DNA from: an uncultured Eubacteriales bacterium
Lineage (GTDB): Bacteria > Bacillota > Clostridia > Oscillospirales > Oscillospiraceae
Direction: 5' to 3'
DNA length: 64,000 nt
NCBI GenBank assembly: GCA_900079765.1
Contig: LT599017.1
Coordinates: forward strand, 2,015,766 to 2,079,765
Of this stretch, positions 54,021 through 64,000 are shown piece by piece; position 1 is the stretch's first letter, and each line of letters begins with the position of its first letter. Below the pieces are notes generated by a model. The model made no database searches. It was given only the letters and a program-made list of their open reading frames with translations, and was not told the origin of the DNA. Made by a program: the position numbers and the translations under genes.

Positions 54021-54078
54021 AAACTCAACAAAATTTCTATAAATTTGCAAAAAATGCTTGTTTTTACAGGTTGGGCCT

Positions 54079-55493
54079 ATGAAGAGAATAAGAGTGGCAT
54101 TTTTAATCTCCATTATTATTGCTACACTCGTTTCTTGTAATACCACAAACAACTCCCTTGCAGGTTTTCTAAAAGATACGAACCATATGCGACAGCAGGG
54201 AGTCAGTTCTCCTTGGGAAGAATCGGAGAAGTTGCTTTTGCAGGGTTTTATCGACTCAAATACCGCTGTGGACTCAGTGTTCTCAGATACCCAACTACAA
54301 GAGCTCTGCTCACCAGGGCCTGAACAGGGGGTGGATTCCTCCCAACTCGTCGAAGATGTAGATGTTCTCTTTCAATTACTGAAGGAGACATATGGAGCCT
54401 ATTTTTATTTTGGCGGCGGTCAAACTTTCGATACCGCAAAGCAACAGATTTTAGATGAGGTACATTTATTACAGGATAGCGAAATTACACCAAGAGCCAT
54501 CGAATCGCTGCTTGCCACTCATCTTTCCTCTATTATCAAAGACTCTCATTTTGTAATTGGGTCAATCAGAATATCCACATATCCACGGGTAGTCAACTCT
54601 ATCCCTACCAAGTACCCAATCTATATTTTGATTCGCCCTTGGCCGCATACAAGGAATATATGGGGCTAACCCTTACGCCAGAGGGAATAATTAAGTATGC
54701 ATTTGTCGCGACCAGCAAAGATGGCAAAGATTTGCCTGAAACTGCTATTGTTGACCAGAAAACAATTTTCTTAGACTGGACACAAATGGAACCATTCAAG
54801 CCTTCCGAATTGTCATATTATGATACCTCGACTGTAGACGGAATTAATATAATCACTTCCCGCTCTATGCTGTATTCCTCAGAGAGCGTTGATGTCTTAG
54901 AGCAGTTTGCAAGCTCTGGAGCACAGTACCAAGATAATAGATCGTTGATTTTGGATTTGCGAGGCAATAATGGCGGTAACAGTGCCTATGCGATGTCCTG
55001 GTTACAGAATTTTCTTGGTACGGAATTTCCGGTAAAGCAAATGTTTACACAGAGAATTAGTGCCTCCTTTTGCAGCTATGTGAGTTCCCCCGGTAGCTTA
55101 TACGACTCGACCTTTTCTACTTGGATTGATAATCAACATGATCCATGGGTTTCGCAAATTATGGAAGGCAAGCAGCAAAAAAATGATTGTATCATCTTTG
55201 TTTTAGTCGATAAGAACGTTGTGTCCGCTGCCGAAGACTTTATTGCCTGGCTCAGAACATTGGAGAACGTGCTGATTGTTGGTTCAAACACAGGCGGGAC
55301 CAGTGTTTGCGGAAATATCTTTTATTTTTATCTTCCAAATTCAAAGCTGATGGTCAGATTTGGCACCAGCTTGACATTTTATGAGGGACTTGAAAATAGA
55401 GACGGTATCGGATTTTATCCTGACCTATGGGTTGACCCCTCCGTTTCGCTTGATTATGTATTAAGGCTATGCAAACAGAGCGGTTTATCTTGA
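54079..55493 (+). pseudogene. Frameshifted S41-family peptidase-like lipoprotein
   Basis: First part (54079-54669): lipoprotein signal MKRIRVAFLISIIIATLVSC with Cys as lipid site, then a helical region ending in a stop. Second part (to 55493) is in another frame and carries the S41-type core: LILDLRGNNGGNSAYA, IIFVLVDKNVVSAAEDFIAWL (Ser in the nucleophile region) and GSNTGGTSV. The two parts read on as one protein if a single-base change is assumed between about 54550 and 54640. C-terminal-processing-type peptidases have this core. It is called a pseudogene unless the shift is a sequencing error. Its AT-rich codon use differs from core genes. Confidence 0.72.
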
Positions 55494-57659: not shown

Positions 57660-58592
57660 TTAACGTGCGGCATAATATCCGCCCACGTCCACGCCCAAGT
57701 CGCAGGTATAGACCCATTCAACCACATCGCCGGGCTTAAGGGCATAGCGGGAGCAGCCATAGTTGGGGAACCAGTCGTTCACCTTGTACATCCAGCCGGA
57801 GAGCTCTCCGCAGTCGAACTCGTAGAGGTTATTGATGCCCTCAATGTAGGCACTGTTATAGATGGGCGTATTCTCAAACTCCATATGAATCTTCGCCCTT
57901 TTCATCTCTCGCAGGAGGACGTTGAAGACACTCTCCCCTTCGTAGAACGTAACCTCGGTAGCGGGAAAAATTACCCCGTCCTCAGGCACGAGCTCCGCCT
58001 TGTTCGAGTCAAGCCAGTCCATATTGTTCAGGATGGTGTCGCACCGGACGGAGAGCGTGCAGGTATAGGCGGTGGCGGAGATGGTCACGTTCTGAGGCTC
58101 CACCGGGAGAGGTTTCCCCTCCGGCACCGGGTCTGTCAGATATTTATCCTTGCCGGTAGTTGGGTTTATCTCCATGCCCTGAGTTTGGGAATATTCGGCG
58201 TCCCCGTCCTGAACAGCGGCGGAAGAGCCACCGGCTATTTCGGCGGCCAGAGCCGTCTTCTCCTCCACCGTGAGCCTCCCCTCCTCCCCGCTGGGACGGG
58301 AGGCCAGACCATCCGCCGGAAACAGCGAGGGTGACGGACTAGGCTCCGCCGTTTCAGCGGGACCCGGTGTCACGGCCTCCGGCGTGGGCCCGGGAGTCTC
58401 CGTGGGCTCTGGAGTCTCGGCAGGTGCGCTGGGCCTGGGCGTAACCGCCTCCACCGATGGGCTGGGGACTGGAATGCCGACCGTCCATCCCTGCAGGCCG
58501 GGGGCGCTCCCCCCGTACCAGAAAGCAAATGCCAGCACAGCGAGAACCGCCGCAGGAAGCATCACCTTCCATTTGTTTTTCTTCCACCACAT
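57660..58592 (-). CDS. Membrane-anchored DUF4430 protein
   Basis: 310 residues. A short basic start leads into one membrane helix (about 10-28). A Pro/Thr/Ser/Glu-rich spacer (about 40-95), a mixed region and then a C-terminal DUF4430 domain (about 165-305) follow. The domain's markers are EGESVFNVLLREMKRAKI, YEFDCGELSGWMYKVND and LKPGDVVEWVYTCDLG. DUF4430 is the C-terminal domain of animal intrinsic factor and transcobalamin. The ATG at 58592 is chosen over TTG at 58604. It lies 12 bp after the SLH/toroid gene, so they form one operon. The likely role is extracellular ligand binding; the ligand is unproven. Confidence 0.85.
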   Translation of the reverse strand: MWWKKNKWKVMLPAAVLAVLAFAFWYGGSAPGLQGWTVGIPVPSPSVEAVTPRPSAPAETPEPTETPGPTPEAVTPGPAETAEPSPSPSLFPADGLASRPSGEEGRLTVEEKTALAAEIAGGSSAAVQDGDAEYSQTQGMEINPTTGKDKYLTDPVPEGKPLPVEPQNVTISATAYTCTLSVRCDTILNNMDWLDSNKAELVPEDGVIFPATEVTFYEGESVFNVLLREMKRAKIHMEFENTPIYNSAYIEGINNLYEFDCGELSGWMYKVNDWFPNYGCSRYALKPGDVVEWVYTCDLGVDVGGYYAAR

Positions 58593-58604
58593 AGCTGCCA
58601 CCAA

Positions 58605-60260
58605 TTACAGCAGATTGGCGCTGTCCAAAAGGTTGAAGAGCATCTGGGCCACCTCACCCCGGGTAACGGGTTCTGTGGGCCGGATGTCAGCGTCGCCCTG
58701 ACTTAAGATCTCCTCCCGGTAGCAGAACGCCAGAGCGGGCTGCGCCCAGGCGGCGCTCGCGGTGTAGTCCGGGAACTGGGAAAGCATATCCCGCACCGCA
58801 CCGGTATCCATAGTAATATCCATCCCGCATAGCTTGGCAGCGTTGGCTGCCATGACGGCGGTCTCCTGCCGGGAGATGGTACCCAGGGGGTTAAAGCTGC
58901 CATCGCTGCCGCCGTTGACGATGCCATAGGCGTTGGCCGCTCCCACGTAGGAGGCATACCAGGCGGCAACGGCCACATCGGGGAATTTATCGTTGGCCCC
59001 GGGCGGCAGTCCCAGCGCGACCACCACAATTTTGGCAAACTCGGAACGGGTCATGCTGCCCTCGGGGTCGAAGTTGCCGTTACTCTTGCCGTTAATGATG
59101 CCCCGGGTCGCCAGGGCCTCAATGGCAGTGATATTGGGGCTAGATACGATGTCCGCAAAGGTTTTACCTGGCGCGGTAACCGGCATTGTCTTCACGTCGG
59201 CGTGCTTGCCCCCCAGGCCCGCGCCCTTGGTGGCGCTCGCGCTCACGGCGTCTGGGATGGAAAGGGCGTCCCCCATACGGTAGAGGCTATTCTTCCCTGC
59301 CCTTCCCCGCTGCACGGCGGCCAGTGCGTAAAAGCCCTGCTCTGTAGCCATCTGGTTGCTTCCGGAGCCATCCAGCGTGTGCAGGAAACCAGCGCCCGCA
59401 CGGTAAAAGGACATTACATTGTCCAGGATGGTCTTGCCGTTCTTGACAAAGCGGCTGTCATCGATAGAGACGCCCAACTCGCACAGGGCTACCAGCATTT
59501 GCACGCTGCTCTCAAGGTTGGCGTTACCCCAGGAAGAAAAACCGCCGTCCGTACCCTGCATTTTTGACATGCACGCCAGGGCATCCTGCGTGGCTTTCGC
59601 CACCGCGCTCTGATCCTGATACTTGGCAAGCGCCTGGAGGGCCATACCGGTGATGTCGGGGTCGGACGGGGTGGCTGCCCCGCCGACGCCATTCAGGCTC
59701 CAGCCACCGTCCGCCAACTGACGGGAGAGTATCTCGTCCACGTACATCTGCCGGGTGGCCTGGGTCGCCGCACCAGGGTTTTGGGGCATGGGATAACTCC
59801 CCGCGTCCAGGGCTATAAGAGCCCAAATGGGGCCGTTTATGCCCTGCCAAATGGTCTTTTCGAAATCCCCCAGTGCCTTGGTAAGATCGTACCCTGCTAC
59901 GTTCCTGGCGTCCTTGCCGATGGATGAGAGGGCTACGATGACCCGGGAGTACTCGGTATACTTTTTCGTGTGCAGTATACCGCCGCAAGCCTTGACGTAG
60001 GCCTCCACAGTGGCGTAATAGTCCTGATAGTACTCCTTCGGCACCTCGTAGCCACTCCGGGCCAGGCCCAACACCGCCCACTCCCCGCCGATGGACCCCA
60101 CCTGTGGGCTTTTGACGGTCTTATACATGTACGCCGCCGCGTCGTCCACGGCGCTTGCCAGGGTATCATCCGATACCGCGGCGTGGGCAGGCGCACTCAC
60201 CCCTACCAGCAGTGCGGCAGCCAGCAAGAAACCGAGACCCCGCTGCTTGAAACTCTTCAT
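58605..60260 (-). CDS. Secreted alpha/alpha-toroid (prenyltransferase-like repeat) protein with three SLH domains
   Basis: 551 residues. Signal peptide cut after SAPAHA (about 28). Residues 30-330 are helical repeats of the prenyltransferase/squalene-oxidase toroid type, with QLADGGWSLNG and QGTDGGFSSWG. Three SLH domains (about 365-545) hold FADIVSSPN, FPDVAVAAWY and FPDYTASAAW with MTRSE, ISRQE and VTRGE. SLH domains bind pyruvylated wall polymer, so the protein should sit on the cell surface. The toroid equals the N-terminal domain of intrinsic factor. It is cotranscribed with the DUF4430 gene 12 bp downstream. Confidence 0.85.
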   Translation of the reverse strand: MKSFKQRGLGFLLAAALLVGVSAPAHAAVSDDTLASAVDDAAAYMYKTVKSPQVGSIGGEWAVLGLARSGYEVPKEYYQDYYATVEAYVKACGGILHTKKYTEYSRVIVALSSIGKDARNVAGYDLTKALGDFEKTIWQGINGPIWALIALDAGSYPMPQNPGAATQATRQMYVDEILSRQLADGGWSLNGVGGAATPSDPDITGMALQALAKYQDQSAVAKATQDALACMSKMQGTDGGFSSWGNANLESSVQMLVALCELGVSIDDSRFVKNGKTILDNVMSFYRAGAGFLHTLDGSGSNQMATEQGFYALAAVQRGRAGKNSLYRMGDALSIPDAVSASATKGAGLGGKHADVKTMPVTAPGKTFADIVSSPNITAIEALATRGIINGKSNGNFDPEGSMTRSEFAKIVVVALGLPPGANDKFPDVAVAAWYASYVGAANAYGIVNGGSDGSFNPLGTISRQETAVMAANAAKLCGMDITMDTGAVRDMLSQFPDYTASAAWAQPALAFCYREEILSQGDADIRPTEPVTRGEVAQMLFNLLDSANLL

Positions 60261-60370
60261 CTTTTATTCCCTCTTTCTTCCATAGCCTTTTTTGTCTGCA
60301 CTGCCTTTCCTAGCACTTCATCCTGTGGCGTGCTCCTGCCCGGTCGAGAACTGGGATACCCAAGCGGACT

Positions 60371-63300
60371 TTACTTCACAACGTTCTCGACAAACCGCAT
60401 GAGGATGGTTGCTACCTGAGCGCGGGACGCGCTATCGCCGGGGAGAAGGCCGCCAGTGGTGATTCCTGTAATCAGGCCTGCGTCCACAGCCCACTCCATA
60501 GCGCTCCGCGCATAGGGCGAGACGCCGGAGGCGTCGGAGTAGGCTGAAAGGTCGTCTGCCCCGGTGGTGTCGTAGCCCTTATAGTCTGCATAGCGGTAGA
60601 GGATCGCCGCCAGCTGCTCACGGGTCACGCTGTCGTTGGTGCCGAACATACCGCTGTCATACCCTGTTATGATACCGGTGGCGTTGGCCCAACGCACGGC
60701 GTCGGTGTACCACTGGCCGTTCTCCACATCTGTGAAGGTGGCCCCAGCGGTCACCGCAGGCTTGCCCTCCAGGCGGTAGAGCACAGTCACCAGCATGGCG
60801 CGGGACATGTCGGTCTCCGGGCCAAAGGTGGTCGTGGTGGTACCGGTAAAGAGGCCGTTCTGGACGGCGTACTTCACTGCGTCATAGTACCATGCGCCGC
60901 TCCGCACGTCGGCAAAGGAATTGGTCCAGGCATCATAGCCCACTACATAGGTGGAGAGGTGCGTGGTGGTAAAGGTGGCAAGGCCTGTGTTCTTATTGTA
61001 GGTGCAGGCCATACTCGTGAGCTTGCCCGCATCATCCAGATACCAGACCGCGACGCCGTCGGCGCTCTCGCCGGCTTTCAGCGTGTAGGGCAGGGAGATG
61101 GTGATGCTCTTGCCGTCAAAGCCGGTGATCTTCTTGCCGTCACTCAGAATGGATATGTCGAACACCGCGCTACCGCTCACAAGCACCTGCTGCTGCGCAG
61201 TCAGGGAGGTTGTTTCTATGTATTCGACGCTAATTAAAATGGTAGAGCCCGCCGTCTGGGAGACGATGGACGACAGCACGCCGTTGGGGAGGGTCACACT
61301 GCCGACCTGGGTCTGCACCATCAGGCTTACATCCGTCTGTCCGGCTACCGCGTCCAGCGCGTCCCTGGCAAGAGTGACCTGGGCCGCCGTTACCGTACCC
61401 TTGACTTTCGGCGCAATCACGATATCGCCACCGCTGGTTTTCGCACTGGCGATGGCGTCTTTCATGTCCGCCAGATCCAGGGACACACTGGCAGTTCCAC
61501 CACTGACCGTAGCTGTCGGTGTAAGGGTCGTAGTGGCAGCGGTACTACTTGAACCACTGTTCCAACTATCGCTGCCCTCTTCTACGGTATAGTCGTCAGT
61601 ATAATGGAAAACAATTTTATCGCCATTCTCCAGGAACTGCTGGGCCAGCCCCAGATTGGGATGCTTAGCGTTAAGCGTGTACATCCAACCGGACCGTGGC
61701 CCGTTGGTAAACTCGCTTAGCATCGTGCTGGTGCCAGGCACTTGCACGCCGGAGACATAAAGGGTTTTATATAGATTGTTGTCATCGCCTTCAAACTCGA
61801 GGCCTGCGTCCTTAAGCGCCTTCTTAAACACGTCGGCCGCCGTTGCGTTGATGTCCACTGTATACGAGGTCTTCTCGATCCAAGTCTTCAGATTGCTGTT
61901 TTTCAGTGTATGAACCTTTCCGTCTTTCTCGCTATCATGGATTTCGTCGCCCAGCAGCGTGAAGTACACCGTGATCGTGTCCGCTGCCACCGGTTTTTTC
62001 AGCACCGTTACGATAAACTCTGCCTTAGCAGCACCACAGGTGGCCGTCAATGTCTGCACCGCCCGCCTGCCGCTGTCAAAGCCACTGATTGTTACGCCAT
62101 CCTTACCTCCGATGGTGGGGGTGGTTATCGTTCCATCGCTCCATTTTGCAGTGAAAACAATTCCGTCAAGATTCAGCGTTTCTCCAAGATAATATTCGCC
62201 CTTGTAGTTTCCAGAAATAGCCAATTCATAGACGACAGGTTTGTCGATGTGGCTGGGGTAGCCTTCCTCGCCTTGCACCCAGTTCTTATAGCTGCCTTCG
62301 CCGTTATTAAGTGGCCCCACAAGAGAACCGTCAGCCATTTCTGCAGCAGTAACCTTTTTGCCTAACTTGTCGCTGTCGGCGCCTAACGGATCGTCTGTAC
62401 GGTTGTGATCCTTTCTGGAAACACTGGCAGGCTCCGTAGGAAGCTCAACTGAGGTATCAAAGTAGTTTTTACATAACTCCGTCTCATGGGACTTACAGCT
62501 GGTGTCCACATAATCCGCTCTGCCGATACTTCTTTCAATACCGTCCGCGCAATAATAGTTATTCTCAATGATATTTGTCTTATTTAGCGAGCGGAAATAG
62601 CCAATGATGCCCCCGGATACGCCTCCCTCACCCGTTGCTTTCAGCGTACCGCTAAAAACATTGTTGCGAACATAAGCGTTGCTCCAGTTTTGGGCGATAC
62701 CGTTTTCGCCGCCCAGAATACCGCCGACCTTATCCGTACCGGTGATATCCGCTGAGACGATACAGTTTTGAATGCTGGTACAGGGAGTATTTGGCGCAGA
62801 AATAGAGTTATAGCCTGCCGCTGCGATGCCGCCGACGCAGCTTCCAGTCCCGGTAATGGTGCCATAGAACTCACAGTTGCTGTAGGAGTAGGGGCCCATA
62901 GACTGGCCTTTCACTCCTCCTATGCCGCCCACATTGTTTACGCCGTAGACATCTGCATAGCTGACACAGTTCAGAAACTTTCCGCTTACCTCGCCCGCAA
63001 ACGAGCCTACACCGGATGAGCCGGAAGATGCACCGGTGGTCTTGTTGTAGCCGATCTTAACATTAGGCTCCACCATGCAATTTGTGAAATTGCAGACATT
63101 CCCGCCAGAGGCATAACCACCTAGGAAACCGCCCATTCTGATGATTGAGCCGCTTTTCAGGGTGACGTTAATCACGTCAAGGGTATCTGGGCAGCCTGGG
63201 GCATAGCTTCCGCCGGTGCCGCTGTTGTAATTGCCGTCCTCGCCATAGTCCACCACGTAATTGGTGAGAAGCGCATAGTCCGCTATATATGGGGCGTAGA

Positions 63301-64000
63301 TGTTCAGGTTCTGGACCGTCGCCTCCCGCGCATAGGTCAGTAGCGCCTTACCTCCTTCCGCAAAGCTAAGCGTGTGATTTTTGCCATCCAGTGTCCCGGA
63401 AAATGGGAGAATATTGGTTCCGTTACCGGCGTTTGTCGCACCGGCTTTCAGCATACCGATACCAATCCAGTCTTTCGAGAGGGCGATGTCGTTCTGCATG
63501 GCAAAATACATTCCCTCAAAGCTGTAGCCCTGTGCGACCAGGGACGCAATTGAGGCAAAATCGGCTGCAGCGGAAAGCTGATAGGGCTCCTTCTCCGTAC
63601 CGGAGCCGGTAAACGGGATTACAATAGGGGGAGTGTCATCCTCTTTTACAGTGATCGCGGCCACGCTGGAGGTCAATTGTGAACTCATTCCCTGCAGGGT
63701 GGAGGTTATGATGCAGTAATAGTACTTTGTGCCGAGCTGCGTAAGAGTACCCAAGCTGTAAGAAGTATTTGTAGCACCCGCAATGGGGGCGCCACTCACA
63801 GTACTGTCCGCCGTATTCTCATACCATTGATAAGCCACCGTGCCATAAATAGGAGATTTCAGGGCAACAGCCAAGCTGCCAGCTGTGCTACCTTGCGTAT
63901 ACTCGGCGCTTTTAGGCTGAGTGCTGATGATGTTGTCGGGCACTGCCGCCGCCTTTACGTATACATAAATATAATCGGAATCAACCGTATAGGTTTTTCC
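60371..64000 (-). CDS. Large surface protein with DUF4430 and three SLH domains, N-terminus outside the window
   Basis: At least 1209 residues, open to the right edge. From N to C as visible: an Ig-like module (VAYQWYENT, YYYCIITST), a long Gly/Asn-rich right-handed beta-helix-like part with GLUG-type repeats (GGIGGVKGQS, GGIAAAGYNS, GGILGGENG), a Big_3-like domain (FTAKWSDGTITTPTIGG), a DUF4430 domain (VYFTLLGDEIHDSEKDG to GDKIVFHYTDDYTVEEG), a further beta region and three SLH domains ending at the C-terminus. It combines adhesin-like and ligand-binding parts. It lies 110 bp before the toroid gene in the same direction. Confidence 0.85.
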   Translation of the reverse strand, partial: GKTYTVDSDYIYVYVKAAAVPDNIISTQPKSAEYTQGSTAGSLAVALKSPIYGTVAYQWYENTADSTVSGAPIAGATNTSYSLGTLTQLGTKYYYCIITSTLQGMSSQLTSSVAAITVKEDDTPPIVIPFTGSGTEKEPYQLSAAADFASIASLVAQGYSFEGMYFAMQNDIALSKDWIGIGMLKAGATNAGNGTNILPFSGTLDGKNHTLSFAEGGKALLTYAREATVQNLNIYAPYIADYALLTNYVVDYGEDGNYNSGTGGSYAPGCPDTLDVINVTLKSGSIIRMGGFLGGYASGGNVCNFTNCMVEPNVKIGYNKTTGASSGSSGVGSFAGEVSGKFLNCVSYADVYGVNNVGGIGGVKGQSMGPYSYSNCEFYGTITGTGSCVGGIAAAGYNSISAPNTPCTSIQNCIVSADITGTDKVGGILGGENGIAQNWSNAYVRNNVFSGTLKATGEGGVSGGIIGYFRSLNKTNIIENNYYCADGIERSIGRADYVDTSCKSHETELCKNYFDTSVELPTEPASVSRKDHNRTDDPLGADSDKLGKKVTAAEMADGSLVGPLNNGEGSYKNWVQGEEGYPSHIDKPVVYELAISGNYKGEYYLGETLNLDGIVFTAKWSDGTITTPTIGGKDGVTISGFDSGRRAVQTLTATCGAAKAEFIVTVLKKPVAADTITVYFTLLGDEIHDSEKDGKVHTLKNSNLKTWIEKTSYTVDINATAADVFKKALKDAGLEFEGDDNNLYKTLYVSGVQVPGTSTMLSEFTNGPRSGWMYTLNAKHPNLGLAQQFLENGDKIVFHYTDDYTVEEGSDSWNSGSSSTAATTTLTPTATVSGGTASVSLDLADMKDAIASAKTSGGDIVIAPKVKGTVTAAQVTLARDALDAVAGQTDVSLMVQTQVGSVTLPNGVLSSIVSQTAGSTILISVEYIETTSLTAQQQVLVSGSAVFDISILSDGKKITGFDGKSITISLPYTLKAGESADGVAVWYLDDAGKLTSMACTYNKNTGLATFTTTHLSTYVVGYDAWTNSFADVRSGAWYYDAVKYAVQNGLFTGTTTTTFGPETDMSRAMLVTVLYRLEGKPAVTAGATFTDVENGQWYTDAVRWANATGIITGYDSGMFGTNDSVTREQLAAILYRYADYKGYDTTGADDLSAYSDASGVSPYARSAMEWAVDAGLITGITTGGLLPGDSASRAQVATILMRFVENVVK

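Follow-up and report, generated by a model that had tools for sequence, protein, structure and literature searches.

How does a gut bacterium catch vitamin B12 outside its cell? The question is raised by a 64,000-nucleotide stretch of DNA (here, the window) from an uncultured Eubacteriales bacterium (assembly GCA_900079765.1, contig LT599017.1, positions 2,015,766 to 2,079,765). In the list of open reading frames (ORFs) made for the window, three adjoining minus-strand frames run up to its end. These encode a membrane-tethered DUF4430 protein (here, D), a toroid protein anchored by SLH domains (here, T), and a giant protein carrying both DUF4430 and SLH domains (giant 2). The original prediction, made from the letters of the window alone, saw in these genes the two halves of the transcobalamin/intrinsic-factor fold, placed on separate but adjacent proteins that are each tied to the cell surface. 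The gene layout has been borne out by the ORFs and by Pfam, and the division of the two halves between proteins by ORFs, domains, fold models, and relatives.

This gut bacterium appears to carry the halves of the animal B12 carriers as separate surface proteins, which would explain how such bacteria catch the vitamin, and the system comes with named genes, a form of regulation, and an importer. It is very probably a cobalamin-repressed system for capturing corrinoids at the surface and feeding them to an energy-coupling factor (ECF) importer of the CbrT kind. This view is built on the gene order, the riboswitches, the orthology of the importer, the homology of its S domain to CbrT, the fold of T, and the fold of a chain that holds T and D together in a relative. 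From these we infer that a corrinoid would be bound, that T and D may sandwich it in trans, and that it would then be handed to the S domain.

Cobalamin control, importer, and conservation

A search for cobalamin riboswitches beyond the 64 kb, which the original prediction had proposed, found them in tandem before both giant genes, those of giant 2 and of giant 1, a 1917-amino-acid (aa) DUF4430-SLH paralogue encoded directly upstream (genome 2082927-2088680). Three of the four elements exceed the gathering score of RF00174 (31.5 bits). A riboswitch within the window itself is ruled out at the Rfam gathering score, at which none was found; the elements begin just beyond the window's end. The leader of giant 2 opens with a promoter-like site; then come an element with a terminator-like hairpin after it and a second element followed by another such hairpin, of 14 bp. 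An AGGAGG-type ribosome-binding site and the ATG close the leader. The leader of giant 1 matches this layout. Read from the sequence, what counts for these hairpins is probably their position after each element, rather than their number.

Six cobalamin elements are placed in this genome, four at this locus, one at the ECF operon, and one at the end of the ethanolamine-utilisation (eut) genes. It might be supposed that SLH genes in general stand under cobalamin riboswitches. This is ruled out; the genome has 140 listed SLH matches (57 distinct open-frame lengths) and just these six elements, placed as above.

The element at the end of the eut cluster (C1:3531614-3531803; L062:5614-5803, +; 113.8 bits) is an observation in its own right. 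It follows genes for a bacterial microcompartment (BMC) protein and EutH, and no recognisable gene comes after it on the plus strand, where a 169-aa ORF has no Pfam match. We take it to be reminiscent of a riboswitch RNA of the EutX/Rli55 type.

An ECF importer, suggested as a possibility outside the window, is found 1.45 Mb from T and D and, in relatives, downstream of D. In the window genome its operon stands behind a cobalamin riboswitch (3540622, minus strand) and holds, by Pfam, genes for CbiQ, an 896-aa fusion of two ATP-binding cassette (ABC) domains with an ECF S domain, AP_endonuc_2, DUF2284, CobT, CobU, CobS, and a histidine phosphatase. When this S domain is compared with the PDB, it matches chain A of 6fnp (E 3.7e-9; second-best E 0.18), a chain of 182 aa and, by its length, the S component. 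6FNP is the entry for ECF-CbrT, which imports cobalamin and cobinamide according to the excerpted text of PMC5997447. The ABC-ABC-S protein is 55.5-60.9% identical to the genes that neighbour T and D in relatives (15 best of 43 long matches); judged by these sequences, it is their orthologue. A search with this importer found the S domain in 62 of 100 loci.

No CbiC was found in the window genome, a result that fits a need for corrinoid import; 5 of 18 toroid-bearing genomes have it. This lack, together with CobU, CobT, and CobS, suggests that cobinamide or related corrinoids are salvaged, as far as one marker of the ring pathway can tell. The corrinoid ligand that had been proposed is supported by the cobalamin riboswitches, the CbrT-like ECF importer, and CobT/CobU/CobS. 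Import of the BtuC type under cobalamin control is ruled out, as 0 of 7 FecCD genes lie near a cobalamin element.

Two further genes recur beside this system. One, an AP_endonuc_2 TIM-barrel gene, stands with DUF2284 in the cobalamin-controlled salvage operon (L062:9394-10925) and downstream of T and D in relatives (L043:4322-5509; a cluster over five loci), and is possibly an uncharacterised corrinoid-linked gene. The other encodes BtuR/CobO, a corrinoid adenosyltransferase, and is found in T-D loci (L073:3600-4325, checked by Pfam, plus four more of its cluster).

Is the arrangement general? A toroid scan of named genomes fetched at least 80 named loci; the system is present in many Clostridia and some Paenibacillus. 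D, T, and SLH were called there with hidden Markov models built from the window and its relatives, frames being read from stop to stop and D being counted where at least 1200 nt of room lay downstream. All 80 loci have the toroid frame, in 67 of them with SLH in that frame, and T is directly followed by a DUF4430 frame in 66 of 68 loci with room (it is missing in L066 and L098). Given that count, the pairing of T with D is evidently not chance. In 48 of 59 loci no more than 30 nt separate the stop of T from the first possible start of D, and all 63 D-type proteins from the named loci have the N-terminal hydrophobic segment. In a culture-collection strain, Sporobacter termitidis DSM 10068, the T-SLH and D genes adjoin.

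Counts of importers and giants rest on a cruder ORF caller, which missed the short toroid ORF in 9 of 80 loci, where longer spurious ORFs overlap it, and which finds D just downstream of T in 56 of 62. By this caller an ABC-ABC-S importer lies downstream in 38 of 44 loci, ECF T in 30 of 44, and a DUF4430-SLH giant upstream in 36 of 60. Two neighbours and one BtuR gene in relatives were checked by Pfam.

The riboswitches recur as well. Of 60 related genomes, 18 have a toroid match; all of these have DUF4430, and 12 have cobalamin elements. These 18 genomes yield 42 RF00174 matches (E up to 0.001), 38 of them above cut-off. For 18 of the 42, a DUF4430 or toroid gene follows within 8 kb on the same strand, against 0.19 expected; the count is 16 of 38 above cut-off, and 14 of 36 without the window genome. 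Among the named loci, 50 of the 80 were chosen for holding upstream sequence and 42 were scanned directly with Rfam (outside this count are L065, L071, L073, L078, L090, L096, L098, and L099). Direct scans replaced a regular-expression test of riboswitch cores, which passed 334 of 4000 control windows. RF00174 was found in 27 of the 42, with 30 matches, all on the strand of T and before or at the called start of the DUF4430/toroid gene run. In three of these loci (L107, L109, L127) the element overlaps the 5' end of a called ORF, whose start was probably called too early.

The toroid, the DUF4430 domain, and the animal carriers

Does T have the fold of an animal carrier? The toroid of the window was modelled with AlphaFold from an alignment with 73 relatives (predicted local distance difference test, pLDDT, 95.9; predicted template-modelling score, pTM, 0.93). 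Searched with Foldseek, the model has squalene-hopene cyclase (E 3.8e-5) as its best match and rat transcobalamin (E 6.2e-5; query-normalised TM-score, TMq, 0.55) as the next, and further matches are to transcobalamins and prenyltransferases. In VIA, the toroid fold of class II terpene cyclases is met with Z 22.6 over 256 aligned residues, at a root-mean-square deviation (rmsd) of 3.0. Because T matches both groups, the toroid fold alone cannot tell a carrier from an enzyme. The likeness to the animal carriers that had been predicted for the fold was found by Foldseek, but cyclases match too, and carriers are not in the listed VIA rows.

The original prediction held that a toroid matching nothing but squalene-cyclase-like enzymes, and having their catalytic residues, would speak against it. 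The sequence does match such enzymes and no animal carrier, but the catalytic DxDD is missing at the aligned site. A single-sequence Pfam search with the toroid gives squalene-cyclase matches only, all sub-threshold (18.2 against 26.1 bits; 16.4 against 26.2), and no protein of the window matches PF01122 in Pfam up to E 0.1. At the aligned site, DxDD is found in 0 of 74 toroids of profile A3 and 0 of 28 of profile A1, a D.DD string occurring elsewhere in three (A3) and one (A1). Residues D175 and T177 are invariant, and H267 is conserved in 97% of A3. A terpene cyclase was, of course, a candidate for T, as the toroid fold and repeat motifs are common to both; it was rejected, since DxDD is absent at the aligned site.

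Nature has, in several relatives, joined the two parts: a giant protein there holds T and then DUF4430 in one chain. A fragment of one such giant (L097), whose gene lies behind a cobalamin riboswitch, was folded with AlphaFold with 31 further rows in the alignment (pLDDT 88.2, pTM 0.70, linker pLDDT below 50). Foldseek ranks 1-15 of this model are all animal B12 carriers (E 5.2e-10 to 5.8e-7), with transcobalamin supplying 12 chains, intrinsic factor 2, and haptocorrin 1; a member of the cyclase group, Tpn2, comes next (E 4.1e-5). For 5no0, a transcobalamin beta domain on its own, the match to the model has a target-normalised TM-score (TMt) of 0.69. The same TMt is reached, on the DUF4430 part, by 3u7z (RUMGNA_00854 of Ruminococcus gnavus), titled as a putative metal binding protein. 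Thus, in the predicted model, both domains of the chain match animal carriers, while their mutual placement does not. With a linker pLDDT below 50, the model speaks neither for nor against closure. In the excerpted text of PMC4350170, DUF4430 is given as a domain of the TCN proteins.

Two other DUF4430 proteins may be placed beside these. A giant of Paenibacillus plantarum (L096:15885-20897, minus strand) holds several DUF4430 domains and a toroid; about 10 residues past the toroid, a stretch that is beta-grasp-like by eye goes unscored by the DUF4430 model, and is possibly part of a divergent T-D pair of the carrier type. The window genome encodes a fourth, short DUF4430 protein (C1:1738327-1738782; L007:6328-6783; plus strand, 151-153 aa) with a membrane-anchored start, whose ligand may differ.

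Two halves in trans, or something else

How would the separate proteins work together? When internal corrinoid is low, transcription would read through both serial riboswitch-terminator units, leading to production of the surface proteins. The giant DUF4430-SLH proteins and T would be held in the cell wall by their SLH domains, and D would be tethered to the membrane by a long flexible spacer. T would offer the cavity of a barrel and D a beta-grasp cap, these being the two halves of the transcobalamin/intrinsic-factor binding unit. A corrinoid gripped between them near the membrane would be passed to the S domain of the ECF importer. Here, importer and salvage enzymes are encoded 1.45 Mb off; in most relatives with enough sequence, the importer is encoded directly 3' of D. 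That the separate T and D close over one corrinoid in trans has about an even chance. The fuller proposal, that these two separately anchored half-proteins (barrel in the wall, cap tethered to the membrane) both close and deliver to the ECF importer, falls a little short of even.

Here, relatives that join the two halves are instructive. A single-chain T-D protein precedes homologous ECF genes both in L147 (574 aa; importer 48% and S domain 40% identical to those of the window genome) and in L148 (605 aa; ECF T 32% and importer 48% identical); L145 has T, DUF4430, and SLH in one chain, without that importer adjoining. Evolutionary distances bear on the same question. Across the 37 loci with T, D, and importer, distances correlate at 0.67 for T-D, 0.65 for T-importer, and 0.64 for D-importer; the partial correlation of T and D given the importer is 0.44, a value that none of 999 permutations reached. 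Where a giant is present too (21 loci), T-D gives 0.70, T-giant 0.17, and D-giant 0.14, the giant's domain being short and picked by best score, so that its values are noisy. Because the distances of T, D, and importer correlate and those of the giants hardly do, the first three look like a core and the giants like a variable outer layer. Correlated T-D distances can, of course, also stem from shared descent or joint transfer.

Closure in trans has a serious competitor, to which we give somewhat less than an even chance. Here, the giants, T, and D would each bind a corrinoid singly and relay it inward, from wall to membrane to S domain, with no two-sided pocket between T and D. One half alone can bind, as 5np4, an isolated human transcobalamin beta domain titled as bound to cyanocobalamin, implies. 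Some relatives already have giants that combine T and D, and the separate pair may therefore have another role; T and D sit on different anchors; the AlphaFold model of T with D is not closed; and their distances correlate no better with each other than with those of the importer. However, a relay leaves several facts less well explained. The T-D correlation persists once the importer effect is removed, T and D do not track the DUF4430 of the (noisy) giants, D adjoins T in nearly every locus with room, and single-chain T-D forms adjoin homologous importers.

The reading of T and D as a split corrinoid carrier must also be held against a series of observations that weigh on the other side. VIA-align rows for the toroid model are topped by terpene cyclases together with sugar epimerases (Z up to 22.6); the 50 rows listed contain no animal carrier, although such matches are not thereby excluded. 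Sequence profiles of T match cyclases and, weakly, macroglobulin-type toroids, with no transcobalamin or intrinsic-factor PDB chain in profile A1 (E up to 1) or A3 (E up to 10), and a D-only profile (A5) gave no significant PDB match and none of those carriers. In the L097 model the domains are placed unlike those of transcobalamin (TMq 0.30-0.41, rmsd 21.9-23.4 Å in the 15 rows), and VIA aligns intrinsic factor 2pmv to it over 334 residues with an rmsd of 22.4. Distances of T and D are no nearer to each other than to the importer. At gathering score, RF00174 is missing from 15 of the 42 scanned loci (L064, L066, L067, L083, L089, L091, L103, L105, L112, L114, L125, L126, L128, L132, L133), and 6 of the 18 toroid-bearing genomes showed no cobalamin element. 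Terminator-like hairpins, two per leader, are not in excess of shuffles, which average 1.1 and 1.0. In the window genome T and D lie a long way from the importer, seven FecCD-type permeases are present, and the short fourth DUF4430 protein has neither a cobalamin element nor a toroid nearby.

Some of these points might suggest that the system, merely controlled by cobalamin, binds something else, such as haem, a siderophore, another tetrapyrrole, or a metal chelate. DUF4430 also matches in the control genomes of Lactococcus lactis and Methanosarcina acetivorans (where DUF4430 alone was scored), the fourth DUF4430 of the window genome lies away from toroid and cobalamin elements, and the title of 3u7z speaks of metal. 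Another ligand is nonetheless improbable, given that the linked S domain matches CbrT, whose uptake of B12 was not competed by haemin (excerpted text of PMC5997447), that CbiQ and cobT/cobU/cobS share the importer operon, and that the T-D chain has the fold of dedicated B12 carriers. Still less credible, to the point of being very improbable, is that T is a secreted enzyme, either like class II terpene cyclases or active on sugars, and the DUF4430 proteins unrelated surface modules. The top sequence and VIA matches of T are indeed squalene-hopene cyclase, drimenyl diphosphate synthase, and sugar epimerases, but the DxDD motif is missing from the aligned site throughout both profiles, T has a signal-peptide-like start and an SLH anchor, its genes keep company with riboswitches and ECF genes, and the fused T-D chain matches B12 carriers ahead of any cyclase.

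Should T and D indeed close on a corrinoid, they would show a two-domain carrier split across the Gram-positive envelope, and this would bear on the origin of animal intrinsic factor.

Features of the locus and known systems

Table. Positions of the genes, domains, and riboswitches (window numbering unless marked as genome).
Feature	Position	Strand	Basis
D, membrane-tethered DUF4430 protein, 314 aa from TTG	57660..58604	-	PF14478 62 bits, cut-off 23.8
DUF4430 domain of D, residues 223-300	57705..57938	-	Pfam; fold predicted from the fused model of a relative
T, 551 aa, secreted, with an alpha/alpha toroid and three SLH domains	58605..60260	-	Pfam and AlphaFold fold
Toroid domain of T, residues 28-345	59226..60179	-	AlphaFold
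SLH cell-wall anchor of T, from residue 368	58605..59159	-	Pfam; S-layer protein matches
Giant 2, C-terminal 1209 aa of a 1971-aa ORF	60371..64000	-	Big_3, DUF4430, three SLH (Pfam)
DUF4430 domain of giant 2	61598..61846	-	Pfam, 35.1 bits, cut-off 23.8
Big_3 Ig-like domain of giant 2	62003..62203	-	Pfam
SLH anchor of giant 2	60371..60739	-	Pfam
RF00174 before giant 2	genome 2082177-2082416		53.4 bits
RF00174 before giant 2, weaker element	genome 2082589-2082733		33.6 bits
RF00174 before giant 1	genome 2088827-2089059		44.9 bits
RF00174 before giant 1, weaker element	genome 2089209-2089353		23.4 bits, below gathering 31.5

The true start of D is likely the ATG at 58592, 12 nt past the stop of T; from there the protein runs from an N-terminal hydrophobic segment through a long spacer to the DUF4430 domain. 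T begins with a signal-peptide-like N-terminus, and its three SLH domains score 110 bits in Pfam. The ORF of giant 2 continues past the end of the window to genome position 2082051. Directly upstream of the giants, on the same strand, lie genes for a molybdate-type ABC transporter and others that resemble those of molybdenum-cofactor synthesis (L005:16574-19974, L006:1-3377; two checked by Pfam), an adjacency that is probably accidental. Elsewhere in the window, two overlapping plus-strand ORFs (54058-55493; 203 and 284 aa) resemble the pieces of a single secreted protein split by a frameshift.

Capture before import is, of course, familiar. BtuF/BtuFCD and the surface B12 binders of Gram-negative bacteria likewise capture first, but with unrelated folds and a classical ABC binding protein.

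The closest precedent comes from Burroughs et al. (2007), the excerpted text of which (PMC1796856) describes bacterial toroid-SLBB proteins, secreted or on the surface, that were predicted to scavenge B12, in operons that often hold a second SLBB protein and CbiO/CbiQ genes; the fused toroid-SLBB form was proposed to have been transferred to animals. The likeness is plain, as here too a secreted DUF4430/SLBB domain and a toroid share an operon or a chain, with CbiO/CbiQ-type genes near in relatives. In the window genome, however, CbiQ and the ATPases lie 1.45 Mb away, and the toroid and the SLBB (DUF4430) domain are separate proteins, anchored in wall and membrane, with giant SLH partners. That excerpted text has none of the words riboswitch, S-layer, and split. 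What is added here is the control by cobalamin riboswitches, the split layout over wall and membrane with SLH giants, the S domain of CbrT type, and fold evidence from models. In the open-licence literature, which was partially covered, none was seen that links DUF4430 or the toroid with cobalamin riboswitches or CbrT.

With ECF-CbrT, as the excerpts of PMC5997447 describe it, the importer shares a homologous S domain, an ECF T, and two ATPases, here under cobalamin control. It differs in that both ATPases and the S domain are in one 896-aa chain and that extracellular capture proteins are added. The same excerpts describe a cluster nrdJ-cbrS-cbrT-pduO in Lactobacillus delbrueckii, in which cbrS, unexplained there, adjoins cbrT. 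Tandem adenosylcobalamin (AdoCbl) riboswitches are also known, with 26 doublets in the excerpted text of PMC9481103. Two serial elements, each with its own terminator-like hairpin, are therefore an arrangement already known, although the controlled genes here differ from those of that text, as far as it describes them.

This leaves the animal proteins themselves. Intrinsic factor, transcobalamin, and haptocorrin share with T and D an alpha/alpha toroid and a DUF4430-type beta domain, but they carry these in one chain, whereas here there are two anchored proteins, without a sequence match to the carriers and with a domain placement that the model does not reproduce. If closure in trans and delivery are true, the pair would be a dedicated extracellular capture module for a type of transporter in which binding otherwise falls to the S component in the membrane. 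It would also be a present-day bacterial counterpart of animal intrinsic factor, and perhaps its origin.

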